Origin: Occultella glacieicola
GTDB lineage: Bacteria; Actinomycetota; Actinomycetes; Actinomycetales; Beutenbergiaceae
Direction: 5' to 3'
NCBI RefSeq assembly: GCF_004353825.1
Contig: NZ_SMNA01000005.1
Coordinates: 310,001 to 374,000, forward strand
DNA length: 64,000 bases
Position numbers and translations under genes: made by a program. Below the pieces are notes generated by a model that saw only the letters and a list, made by a program, of their open reading frames with translations, was not told the origin of the DNA and did not search any database. How positions within the stretch are numbered: position 1 is the first letter of the stretch; every line of letters begins with the position of its first letter. Positions 7,753 to 34,963 of this stretch are shown piece by piece.

Positions 7753-7795
7753 GTGGTGTGATTCCGACGCACCGGGTGGCTCGCAACCGCACCAC
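7753..7795. repeat. Palindromic repeat, DUF559 family 1, copy 1
   Basis: An imperfect palindrome: left arm 7753-7767, right arm 7781-7795, centre CGCACCGGGTGGC. It shares GTGTGATTCCGACGCACCGGG with copies 3 and 4. Its right flank (CAGGCATG, then GAGGGGAC) recurs beside copy 3, so the conserved unit is longer than the palindrome. Confidence 0.8.
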
Positions 7796-7821: not shown

Positions 7822-7905
7822 CCCACCCCGCTCCGCCCACCCCGCTCCACCCACCCCGCTCCGCCCACCCGGCTCCGCCCACCCCGCTCCGCCCACCCGG
7901 CCCCG
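7822..7905. repeat. 14-base minisatellite, six units
   Basis: Six head-to-tail units of CCCACCCCGCTCCG with one or two changes each (7822, 7836, 7850, 7864, 7878, 7892). The block lies inside the palindrome pair next to the DUF559 gene. The strand bias is extreme: one strand is almost free of purines. Confidence 0.9.
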
Positions 7906-7955
7906 TTCCCCCAGCGCACCGGGCCCACCGCTCCCCGCATGCGGCCCAGCCTGTT

Positions 7956-7998
7956 GTGGTGTGATTGCGAGGCACCCAGCACCTCGCAATCGCACCGT
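7956..7998. repeat. Palindromic repeat, DUF559 family 1, copy 2
   Basis: Left arm 7956-7972 (GTGGTGTGATTGCGAGG) and right arm 7982-7996 are nearly perfect complements. It lies 17 bases past the DUF559 gene stop and could double as its terminator. Its left flank GGCCCAGCCTGTTG faces copy 1, as in an inverted pair. Confidence 0.8.
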
Positions 7999-8015: not shown

Positions 8016-8966
8016 CTATGTGCAGCGCGGGCAAGGTTCGAGCTCGTCGGCCCAGCCGCGGTGGTGCAGGATCTCGGCGATCCACCGGGCGGTCCGGCAC
8101 GGCGTGGTGAAGGCCAGCCCGTACGTGACCCGCGCGGTCGGCGCCCCGGAGGCAGCCAGTTCGGCCAGGTCGCGGGCAGCGTCATCGTCACGTGCGGCGG
8201 CGTCGCCGTGGAAGGCCAGACCGTCGAGCTCCACCACAAGCCCGAACCGCGTGTACCTGACGTCCTGGTGGGTGCGGATCCCGAGCGACGAGCTCTCGTG
8301 CTGGCGACTCGCGCGCGGAAGCGCGTGGGCGCGCTCGACGTTGTCGCGATAGCCACGCTCGAGTACAGAGCACACGCCGTCGCGCAGGTCGTTGAGCATC
8401 GAGACGATCATCGTTCGCCCGGCAACACGTCGACGGCTGGCGAGCGCGACCAGGATCCGCTCCGGCGTGGTCCGGCGCGACTGTGCGACCCTGGCGAGCG
8501 TGGCGAAACCCGCGGCCACGTCCCCCGCGCGGATGTGCTTCGACATCTCGTCGATCGTCGCGTGCTCGGTCCGCACCCGCGGTGGCGCCCGATGCCACAG
8601 CACCCGTCGCTGGAGGTCGCTCATGCGGCGGACCTCCACGCCCTTCGGCAGCCGGAGAGTGCGGGCGCGTGCGATCGCGATCTGCACGTGCGCCGGAGCC
8701 GGACCGGGCAACGCGGAAGCGCCCGCCAACGCGGCCGGCCACGCCGTCAGCACCGCGGCCCACTCCCGCTGCCGCCGGGTCAGCGGGCCGGTGTGGTTCA
8801 CGAAGACGCCGGGATGGACGCGCCGGAGTTCGCGCCGCCGGAGCATCCGTTCGATGTCATGCAGCAGGGCACCCGCCTCGAGCAACTGCCACCGTGCGAC
8901 CACGCCGTCCTGCACCGAGAGCAGCTCCAATAGGGGCACGCGATCGAGCTCGAACCGTTCCGACAT
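8016..8966 (-). CDS. DUF559 putative nuclease with AbiEi-like N-terminal domain
   Basis: A 316-residue protein. Residues 1-60 resemble the winged-helix domain of AbiEi-type antitoxins (RMLRRRELRRVHPGVFVN). The C-terminus carries a DUF559/Vsr-like PD-(D/E)xK fold core: RYTRFGLVVELDGLAFH, then DDDAARDLAEL and RVTYGLAF. Such proteins are common and multi-copy in actinomycetes, and their role is not established. No AbiEii toxin or methylase adjoins it, so this is not a complete toxin-antitoxin or restriction pair. The gene stands alone, enclosed by two palindrome pairs and two minisatellites. The start ATG 8966 lacks a strong ribosome binding site. A second member lies at 33903-34810. Confidence 0.75.
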   Translation of the reverse strand: MSERFELDRVPLLELLSVQDGVVARWQLLEAGALLHDIERMLRRRELRRVHPGVFVNHTGPLTRRQREWAAVLTAWPAALAGASALPGPAPAHVQIAIARARTLRLPKGVEVRRMSDLQRRVLWHRAPPRVRTEHATIDEMSKHIRAGDVAAGFATLARVAQSRRTTPERILVALASRRRVAGRTMIVSMLNDLRDGVCSVLERGYRDNVERAHALPRASRQHESSSLGIRTHQDVRYTRFGLVVELDGLAFHGDAAARDDDAARDLAELAASGAPTARVTYGLAFTTPCRTARWIAEILHHRGWADELEPCPRCT

Positions 8967-9077
8967 CGCGGCACGGTGTCACGCCTGTAGTAGCAGATGC
9001 CCGATCGCGCGCCCACCCCTGTGGACCGCCAGGCGTCGGAGCCACGCCTGTGCGGCACGGGTCAAGCGTCAGCGGGC

Positions 9078-9218: not shown

Positions 9219-9259
9219 GATGTGATTCCGACGCACTGGGCACCTCGGAATCGCACCAC
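9219..9259. repeat. Palindromic repeat, DUF559 family 1, copy 3
   Basis: TGTGATTCCGA (9221-9231) pairs with TCGGAATCGCA (9245-9255). The right flank CACCACTGCGGCCCAGGCAT matches the right flank of copy 1. Confidence 0.8.
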
Positions 9260-9349: not shown

Positions 9350-9389
9350 AGGTGTGGTTCCGACGCACCGGGTACGTCGGAACCACATC
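9350..9389. repeat. Palindromic repeat, DUF559 family 1, copy 4
   Basis: GTGTGGTTCCGACG (9352-9365) pairs with CGTCGGAACCACAT (9375-9388). It forms an inward-facing pair with copy 3, as copies 1 and 2 do on the other side of the gene. Confidence 0.8.
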
Positions 9390-33572: not shown

Positions 33573-33650
33573 GGGGTCCCTTCCGATCGGTGCTCCCAGG
33601 CAGACCCGGCGCCGGCCCGGAACTCATCGCCGCAACGCGGGGTACGCTTC

Positions 33651-33689
33651 GCGAGAGTGCGGAAATGGCAACCACCACGGCGCCCTCAC
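33651..33689. repeat. Palindromic repeat, DUF559 family 2, upstream copy 1
   Basis: It begins GCGAGAGTGCGGAAATGG and ends GCGCCCTCAC, an imperfect palindrome. It aligns over its whole length with the upstream copy 2 and, more loosely, with the two downstream copies. Confidence 0.75.
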
Positions 33690-33745
33690 CGGGTGGCGCG
33701 CCGGCACCTCGCCGCCCACCCCCGCCTGACCCGCACCCACCCTGC

Positions 33746-33784
33746 GCGAGCGTGCGGAAACGGCAACCATCACAGCACCCTCAC
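33746..33784. repeat. Palindromic repeat, DUF559 family 2, upstream copy 2
   Basis: It begins GCGAGCGTGCGGAAACGG and ends GCACCCTCAC, with six or so changes from upstream copy 1 and the same orientation. Confidence 0.75.
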
Positions 33785-33902
33785 GGCCGAGCATCACGCG
33801 CACGCGCGACGCAGTCGTCCACTCCCGTGTGCCCGATGCGGGGCGGTCCACAGCCGGCGCCATGCTCGCGCGCCGGCTTCGCGAGCTTGCCACCCTGCTC
33901 GG

Positions 33903-34810
33903 ATGGTGCGACAGCCCGATCCGGACGTGCCCCCCGGGGTGCGACTCGGTGAACAGTTCTCCATCACCGAGGCGCGCGCACGCGGCTACACGAGGGGCCA
34001 GATCCGGCACCGTCGGGCGAGTGGGAAGTGGCAGAGCGTGGTCGGGAGGATCGTGCTGGACCGCACCCGCAGGGTCGATGACACCGAGCGCATCCGGGCG
34101 GCGGTCAGCACCTGGCCACGGGGGTGGTGGGGCTGCGGGCAGCCGCCGCGTGGTATGGGCTTCCGGTGGCGCCCGGTCCCCGGATCGAGGTGTACACCTC
34201 CGTGGCCAGGCGGCCGACGCGTCACCTGCAGCCGCTCCGCGGACGCCTTCCCGGGGCCGACATCGACTCCCGCGAGCGCCTCGGGCTTCGGGTCACGACC
34301 ATGAGGCGGACCATCCTGGACTGCCTGGCCCACCTGCCGCGCGGTGAGGCCGAACGCCTCTGGGCCTACGTGTCCAGCCGCTCCCTGCTCAGCCAGGCCC
34401 ACCTGCTGGAGGCGATCGCCGACCGCCGCGGGCATCGGGGAACCGGTCAGCTCCGGCACTTCGCCGACCTCGCGGGCCGCGGTGCCGCCAACCCGGCGGA
34501 GGTCCGCCTGCACGAGATCCTGCGGGCCGCGGGCCTGACCCAGTGGCGGGCGGGGGTGCCGGTCAAGACGCCGGACGGTCTGATCGTGGCGCGGCCGGAC
34601 GTCCTGTTCGAGCGCGAGAAGGTCGCGATCGAACTCGATGGCGCCCGAGCACACGGCCCGGACCAGTTCCAGTCGGACCGAGCGCGCCAGAACAGGTTGG
34701 TCGAGCTCGGCTACACCCCGCTGCACTTCACCTGGGCCGACCTCCGGGACCGGGCCGAGCAGGTCGTCGCGACCGTTCGTCGCACGCTCGCGCTCGCGCA
34801 GCCGGCGTGA
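33903..34810 (+). pseudogene. Second DUF559 putative nuclease with AbiEi-like domain, frameshifted
   Basis: The N-terminal winged-helix part reads EQFSITEARARGYTRGQIRH and VVGRIVLDRTRRVDDTERIRAAV in one frame up to about 34105. The rest continues one frame over from about 34106 (HLATGVVGLRAAAAWYGLP) to the stop at 34808-34810. The C-terminal DUF559/Vsr-like core is intact: DVLFEREKVAIELDGARAH, DRARQNRLVELGYTPLHF. Restoring one base near 34106 gives a protein of about 302 residues. A shorter product could start at GTG 34124 (228 residues). It may be a decayed gene or a sequencing error. It is flanked by two repeats on each side, like the intact member at 8016. Confidence 0.7.
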
Positions 34811-34831
34811 GAGTGCCGACGCGCGGGCGGG

Positions 34832-34871
34832 GTGAGCGTGCCGAAGTGGTCGCCACTTCAGCACTCTCGGC
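34832..34871. repeat. Palindromic repeat, DUF559 family 2, downstream copy 1
   Basis: A near-perfect palindrome: GAGCGTGCCGAAGTGG and CCACTTCAGCACTCTC are arms with two mismatches. It starts 22 bases past the DUF559 stop and is identical over 40 bases to downstream copy 2. Confidence 0.9.
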
Positions 34872-34905
34872 ACCGGCGCGAGGGAGCCGCGCCCGCCTAC
34901 CCGGC

Positions 34906-34945
34906 GTGAGCGTGCCGAAGTGGTCGCCACTTCAGCACTCTCGGC
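34906..34945. repeat. Palindromic repeat, DUF559 family 2, downstream copy 2
   Basis: Identical over 40 bases to downstream copy 1 and in the same orientation, with 34 unrelated bases between. It lies 18 bases from the stop of the convergent aldo/keto reductase and could also act as a terminator. Half-units (GAGAGTGCC, GAGAGTGCG) lie just outside both copies. Confidence 0.9.
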
Positions 34946-34963
34946 GCCCGAGAGTGCGAGGTG

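Follow-up and report, generated by a model that had tools for sequence, protein, structure and literature searches.

Private palindromes flank genes for predicted AbiEi-nuclease fusion proteins in Occultella and other actinobacteria

Two genes of the same kind lie in the 64-kb stretch of Occultella glacieicola DNA that was analysed (the window), and each has its own palindromes on both sides. Gene 2 is split over two frames, with the frameshift between its N-terminal and C-terminal parts. Two 39-nt repeats lie 5' of this DUF559 gene and two identical 40-nt palindromes lie 3' of it, an arrangement noticed in a sequence-only reading that held in both coordinates and sequence. The features of the gene-2 locus are as follows.

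33651..33689, + strand: family-2 palindrome, upstream copy 1 (35-nt core 33653-33687)
33746..33784, + strand: family-2 palindrome, upstream copy 2 (core 33748-33782; 95 bp from copy 1)
33847..33853, + strand: TCCACAG, a DnaA-box-like motif between the upstream palindromes and the gene-2 ORF
33903..34118, + strand: gene 2, N-terminal part, first frame; AbiEi-like DNA-binding domain, weak PF13338 match below its cut-off
34124..34810, + strand: gene 2, C-terminal part, second frame; remaining AbiEi-like region and DUF559/MTES_1575 nuclease (predicted)
34832..34871, + strand: family-2 palindrome, downstream copy 1 (core 34834-34868)
34906..34945, + strand: family-2 palindrome, downstream copy 2 (core 34908-34942; identical to copy 1, 74 bp away)

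Gene 1 is intact and lies on the opposite strand, surrounded by palindromes of a different family.

7755..7791, + strand: family-1 palindrome, gene-1 downstream side
7958..7994, + strand: family-1 palindrome, gene-1 downstream side
8016..8966, - strand: gene 1, intact, 316-aa predicted AbiEi-nuclease fusion, same kind as gene 2
9019..9025, - strand: TCCACAG upstream of gene 1 (CTGTGGA on the + strand)
9219..9255, + strand: family-1 palindrome, gene-1 upstream side
9351..9387, + strand: family-1 palindrome, gene-1 upstream side

The gene-2 palindromes are unlike those of gene 1, and the earlier claim that they share nothing obvious with the first gene's family held; the first gene's palindrome is unrelated. 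The claim that all four gene-2 copies align held with a correction. The upstream copies are in register over 33644-33689 and 33739-33784 (85% alike) and the downstream copies extend over 34828-34886 and 34902-34960, with an identical 40-base core at 34832-34871 and 34906-34945, but upstream and downstream copies resemble each other better as inverted repeats (82%) than as direct repeats (63%). A 14-bp tandem repeat (window 7822-7919) lies between both downstream-side palindromes of gene 1.

That both genes belong to one protein family had also been claimed, and this held through alignment and predicted fold, though gene 1 has no Pfam match of its own at E up to 1. The C-terminal part of gene 2 matches Pfam DUF559 at 25 bits (cut-off 20.6) and also matches MTES_1575, below that family's cut-off; the nuclease domain of gene 1 is visible by way of the alignment and the predicted fold. 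The gene-1 model had a mean pLDDT of 88.7 and a pTM of 0.78. Residues 3-195 match AbiEi of Streptococcus agalactiae (6y8q_A; Foldseek E 2.9e-5; Z 12.2 over 182 residues, rmsd 3.9), and residues 199-305 match NGO0050 (3hrl, Z 8.1) and the catalytic domain of I-Bth0305I (3r3p, Z 7.3). The Z values for this Vsr-like fold are near the level of common arrangements, and the 3r3p match had a Foldseek probability of 1.00 but an E of 0.016. E203, D235, E246 and D248 (E, D, E-x-D) are invariant in 19 aligned sequences. At E up to 0.1, DUF559 and MTES_1575 were each matched by 5 of these 19 members, and no Y1/HUH family was among the seven Pfam families matched. By this model gene 1 is predicted to combine the fold of AbiEi antitoxins with a Vsr-like PD-(D/E)XK nuclease, whose activity is inferred. 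PADLOC AbiEi profiles matched all six proteins scanned. No AbiEii partner was present in the five frames around genes 1 and 2, which comprise an aldo/keto reductase, a beta-lactamase family member, an AAA/LuxR regulator and two frames without a match. The gene is under purifying selection: dN/dS was 0.11 to 0.27 in nine intact pairs. Twelve pairs were computed; the two L269 pairs (0.30, 0.43) and the one L254 pair (0.23) are left out of the quoted range, their lengths not being multiples of three.

Copies of both palindrome families are scattered over the O. glacieicola genome. A degenerate family-2 pattern allowing up to 3 mismatches gave 84 matches (43 forward, 41 reverse), most sites counting on both strands, and the reversed pattern used as a control gave none in this genome. 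Scanning the window and 35 loci fetched around pattern matches identified at least 60 family-2 sites, a count that stayed at 60 when the mismatch limit was raised from 6 to 8. These form 37 clusters (15 single, 21 pairs and 1 triple). By our own simple gene caller, 57 of the 60 are intergenic (26 convergent, 26 tandem and 5 divergent, two of the divergent sites belonging to gene 2) and 3 lie inside called genes. From pair to pair, the DNA between paired palindromes mostly shows no homology. Family 1 has about a dozen sites. The more abundant family is the one without an intact gene in the present assembly, gene 2 being frameshifted.

Two further genes of this genome have their own palindrome on both sides, namely a broken gene-1 paralog on contig C23 and a distant paralog at C17:315.9k; another distant paralog, at C17:304.8k, has its own palindrome downstream only. 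The C23 paralog is 75 to 78% identical to gene 1, and its palindromes (L010 1015-1050, 1858-1893 and 2997-3032; G000:C23) keep the family-1 core with a different outer stem. They may be a snapshot of palindrome divergence.

Paired family-2 palindromes are spaced in phase. The 23 neighbour spacings were 46, 54 (four), 55, 63 (two), 64 (three), 65 (two), 73 (two), 74, 75, 85, 87, 95 (two) and 105 (two) bp, with a period of 10.2 bp and a resultant of 0.85, a value that 0 of 5000 draws reached under each of two nulls; the phase was the same under looser scanning. For family 2 only, and in the absence of binding data, we take this phase as a sign that two proteins sit on the same face of the DNA duplex. 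Family-2 pairs of a related species (G002), at 54, 63 and 64 bp, are in phase as read off without a test, and family-1 pair spacings (102 to 258 bp) showed no clear phase by eye, again without a test.

Four Occultella species (O. glacieicola, G001, G002 and G003) were compared. Gene 2 is present only in O. glacieicola, with a broken remnant in G002; G001 and G003 show distant paralogs only. Family-2 matches on both strands numbered 82 in O. glacieicola, 17 in G002, 6 in G001 and 4 in G003, and the reversed control gave 0, so that match numbers track gene 2 across the genus. Family-1 matches numbered 22 in O. glacieicola, 32 in G001, 19 in G003 and 15 in G002, which lacks gene 1 (reversed control 0); a prior prediction of many in the first three and few in G002 was right in direction and weak in strength. 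Some scattered sites are old, common to several species and not newly moved: the same site is present in a relative for 4 of 35 O. glacieicola family-2 loci (L136, L139, L140 and L164, the last in common with G001) and for 3 of 5 family-1 loci (L170, L171 and L173). At six syntenic places in G003 no intact family-2 palindrome was seen, and a decayed copy may remain there at L161 and perhaps also at L162.

The syntenic place of the gene-2 unit in G003 lacks the unit and has ~109 bp instead of 1.33 kb. At the gene-1 locus of G002 the gene is absent and exactly one palindrome is present. In alignments judged by eye, the left flank of this lone palindrome resembles the relatives' outermost left copy and its right flank the outermost right copy, and the left copy at the gene-1 locus of G003 reads as a hybrid of two copies. 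Because three of the four species have gene 1 at this place, the simplest reading for G002 is that recombination between copies removed the gene. The gene-2 remnant of G002 lies at L078 1400-1857; its DNA homology ends at 1814 and a family-2-like palindrome is found at 1823. It looks as if it might have been truncated by or at a palindrome.

Homologs of gene 1 were found in 15 of 24 genomes of the taxonomic family, and many of 25 loci there have long private palindromes nearby, as judged by eye. A wider scan of named genomes, in which 80 of 113 relatives were kept, included Occultella aeris, Pseudactinotalea, Nocardioides, Gordonia, Mycobacterium and Mycolicibacterium. The members found so far are all actinobacterial, other phyla having been outside the search. 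Omitting two loci at contig ends (L200 and L250), hairpins scoring 12 or more numbered 93 within ~300 bp of the gene and 10 in windows 1.7 kb away, and they were on both sides at 30 of 78 loci near the gene against 0 of 78 in the far windows. With a threshold score of 10 in a gapless test, hairpins bracketed the gene in 46 of 80 loci and were missing from one or both sides in the other 34. Typically one palindrome precedes the ORF by ~50 to 150 bp and another follows it within ~50 bp. Left and right palindromes matched each other (score 15 or more) at 36 of the 46 loci, compared to 97 of 2070 pairs drawn across loci, some of which are related. This supports the earlier proposal that genes and palindromes form matched pairs and do not coincide by chance, and makes it a property of the wider family. 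A related expectation, that the repeat covaries with the N-terminal winged helix, was not supported; no domain was singled out among the 33 of 80 loci that were usable. In these loci palindromes were shared where the proteins were more than 75% identical (8 of 8 pairs); at less than about 65% protein identity most had no relation to each other. Palindromes turn over faster than proteins.

Scattered copies are tied to particular gene clades. The pattern of the group-A palindromes was tested in 19 genomes reached through mycobacterial loci. The 8 genomes with a fetched group-A gene had between 3 and 31 matches apiece, and the 11 genomes known for other gene clades had none; the reversed control was 0 in all 19. 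For the 11 control genomes only the other clades were known, without a direct search for a group-A gene. Scattered group-A copies were nearest to their own gene's palindromes in 8 of 17 cases with ties counted, which is not clearly nearer and not decisive, and 4 of the 17 loci form two shared pairs. One genome has two group-A matches with 3 mismatches each, 1199 bp apart and away from the known gene (G026:C199:4928 and 6127); this could be a second unit or a remnant.

At 70 of 78 loci the 130 bp upstream contain the motif TCCACAG on either strand, compared to 2, 2, 0 and 0 in control windows and 13 in the gene body. The full DnaA-box form, TT[AG]TCCACA, occurred at 37 of 78 loci, while each of five control windows lacked it at all 78. 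TCCACAG is DnaA-box-like by sequence alone; DnaA binding has not been shown. The window has four TCCACAG on both strands, two of which precede genes 1 and 2. Among scattered copies the motif was present within 100 bp in 0 of 17 and 1 of 56.

Tests for compensatory change left recognition as a duplex or as a hairpin undecided. Family 2 gave no signal of compensatory change that would indicate selection for a hairpin (81.8% of cells paired, shuffles 83.5%). Group A showed some covariation, its score being reached by 1 of 500 shuffles for 28 related sequences, but relatedness alone can exceed this control. The idea of one canonical arm was tried and failed (mean 0.65, shuffled 0.56).

Group-B mycobacterial genes occur in four contexts, between which a stretch of about 1.05 kb shows 77 to 82% likeness. 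In most comparisons this stretch opens 50 to 105 bp ahead of the ORF, with a lead of only 2 bp in one pair; past the ORF it runs on for 30 to 92 bp, and nothing beyond those limits was shared among the contexts in 3 kb of flank at E 1e-30. In the alignments the limits fall at palindromes where these are kept; the upstream palindrome was lost in 5 of 6 aligned context-2 members. M. porcinum and strain URHD0025 have two copies each, in different contexts. The palindrome-gene-palindrome unit is thus found at different places with homology ending near palindromes, as in insertion sequences, within the 3 kb of flank compared. One of these places is empty in G037 (95 bp, compared to 1157 in L222) but too diverged to show a footprint, and in three other genomes it has other DNA, where the protein was not found. 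That DNA, ~1.34 kb between the flanks of the L222/G037 place, is seen at L292, L293 and L294 (G040, G036 and G042); the place may be a hot spot between two conserved genes. Exact insertion footprints or a target-site duplication were not recovered at the G003 and G037 places, the intergenic DNA being too diverged. In one mycobacterium ~1.77 kb upstream of the element (L207 1090-2857) is absent from a relative (L269 2837-2857). The plasmid collection gave no match, and the phage search gave one partial match covering 41% of the query.

The system most like this one is the REPtron, a RAYT/TnpA_REP gene with its REP/BIME/REPIN palindromes (PMC6006769, PMC8049555). Shared with it are a chromosomal gene with palindromes on either side, a separate palindrome family for each gene, intergenic copies that are often paired and more numerous in genomes with the gene, long-term constraint on the gene, and the absence of a match in the plasmid collection searched; RAYT genes are reportedly unseen on plasmids (PMC8049555). 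In contrast to REPtrons, the protein here is AbiEi joined to a Vsr-like PD-(D/E)XK domain (predicted) without a Y1/HUH domain, the palindromes are roughly 35 to 60 nt with two long arms, family-2 pairs are phased at 10.2 bp, TCCACAG precedes the gene, and the unit is found in more than one context, while transposition as a unit is said not to happen in REPtrons. The search found no HUH/Y1 domain, which keeps the system out of the RAYT/REPtron group. Its plan equals that of the REPtron, and it would work like, but is not, a RAYT system; cleavage of the palindrome is inferred.

AbiEi proteins bind inverted repeats and act as autoregulators. The site of AbiEi consists of two 23-bp inverted repeats with 3 bp between them, that of Rv2827c of two pairs, and neither protein binds the other's repeats (PMC7319586). 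Residues 3-195 share the fold of these proteins and the palindromes share the inverted-repeat layout of their operators. Since two arms around a short centre, often paired in family 2, are the layout of AbiEi and Rv2827c sites, we take the palindromes to be the protein's sites. Unlike type IV AbiE systems, there is a fused nuclease (predicted), there are dozens of scattered sites, and no AbiEii adjoins the genes in the window. The Vsr-like fold of residues 199-305 resembles I-Bth0305I-type homing endonucleases and NGO0050 (3r3p, 3hrl), but the genes here are outside any gene or intron and are flanked by palindromes without splitting a known target. A search of the open-access PMC literature found no title or abstract that joins these genes with palindromes.

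We lean, without great assurance, toward a REPtron-like, selfish or semi-domesticated gene-palindrome system built on an unrelated nuclease. The flanking, privacy, clade-tied dispersal, homology ends of the unit, one-palindrome locus, purifying selection and spacing phase are established from sequence; the folds are predicted, and binding, cleavage and dispersal driven by the nuclease are inferred. In this view one chromosomal gene encodes an AbiEi-type DNA-binding protein fused to a Vsr-like PD-(D/E)XK nuclease, and its private palindromes would be the protein's cognate sites, two inverted half-sites around a short centre like AbiEi operators. The AbiEi part would guide the nuclease to the palindromes, where it may start repair or recombination that copies them to new intergenic places. 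The whole palindrome-gene-palindrome unit would move occasionally, and recombination between flanking copies would delete the gene and leave one palindrome. Among mechanisms, the best support goes to a nuclease that is guided by AbiEi and spreads or moves its own sites, an inference that we hold by a modest margin. Finding sites common to several species lowered our confidence in the main reading slightly, and it remains the one we prefer.

A bolder reading, which could as easily fail as hold, is that of a REP-like system independent of RAYTs, in which the AbiEi-Vsr fusion would be a transposase-like enzyme reading duplex palindromes in phased pairs and not single-strand hairpins, with the DnaA-box-like element perhaps coupling expression or activity to replication. 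Each gene clade would then have its own lock and key, and several populations would coexist per actinobacterial genome; here too we see the chances as balanced. In the literature cited, REP palindromes are tied to one enzyme superfamily, HUH/RAYT (PMC6006769, PMC8049555). If our reading is true, a second, unrelated nuclease has the same plan, and populations of a gene with private palindromes would be a general evolutionary outcome. It would also hint at what DUF559/AbiEi-type genes do in Nocardioides, Gordonia and environmental mycobacteria, and the many natural pairs of protein and DNA site could serve to study how specificity changes.

The chief rival, which remains possible, is a solo-end model. 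Here the whole unit transposes like an insertion sequence, the scattered palindromes are its remains, like solo LTRs, and the protein does not spread palindromes alone. The single G002 palindrome with the flanks of outermost copies and the hybrid left copy in G003 favor it, such ends apparently being formed, as do the presence of the unit in different contexts and the resemblance of the paired flanks (95 and 74 bp) to the genome's free pairs. Against it, 37 clusters and one copy of gene 2 would demand many insertions and losses, and the spacers of paired palindromes are mostly non-homologous. The near absence of TCCACAG from scattered copies (0/17, 1/56) is not decisive, as a clean recombinant would lose the motif too.

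A regulon model, in which the AbiEi-type protein has adapted to the host as a regulator or nucleoid protein, with the palindromes as operators kept where useful, is unlikely. The helical phasing of pairs, the purifying selection on the gene, the binding of inverted repeats by AbiEi autoregulators (PMC7319586), the conserved motif preceding the gene and the sites common to several species are in its favor. However, sites are mostly convergent or tandem (26 + 26 of 60) with only 5 divergent, which does not suit divergent promoters; palindromes turn over faster than proteins, and no intact palindrome was seen at the six syntenic G003 places; and a nuclease domain with invariant residues would be superfluous for a regulator. 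Less likely still is a defence or toxin-antitoxin model, with a derived AbiE antitoxin or restriction-like nuclease and palindromes as incidental operators. The PADLOC AbiEi matches (6/6) support it, but no AbiEii partner was found in the five frames near genes 1 and 2, and the scattered copies are left unexplained. Ordinary transcription terminators, a possibility raised in the sequence-only reading, or chance are all but excluded: 26 of the 60 sites do lie between convergent genes, but a gene-private sequence is shared genome-wide while reversed patterns have 0 matches, copies also lie upstream of genes, and the terminator or RNA-element reading was dropped on the lack of any Rfam match in the window and on the clade-exclusive occurrence of the copies.

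The expectation that other DUF559 genes would have private palindromes was met in part and is not universal. Ten distant DUF559 loci of the genus were inspected for flanking hairpins. Like hairpins were present on both sides at two of the ten (L003 and L080) and on one side only at four (L079, L082, L083 and L084); L004 and L076 had one hairpin each in the locus, the gene span not being set, and at L077 and L081 no hairpin was found. Elsewhere in the O. glacieicola genome, a 64-nt palindrome with 93% complementary arms (L011 3776-3839; G000:C21) comes right after a weakly DUF559-like frame of 507 aa.
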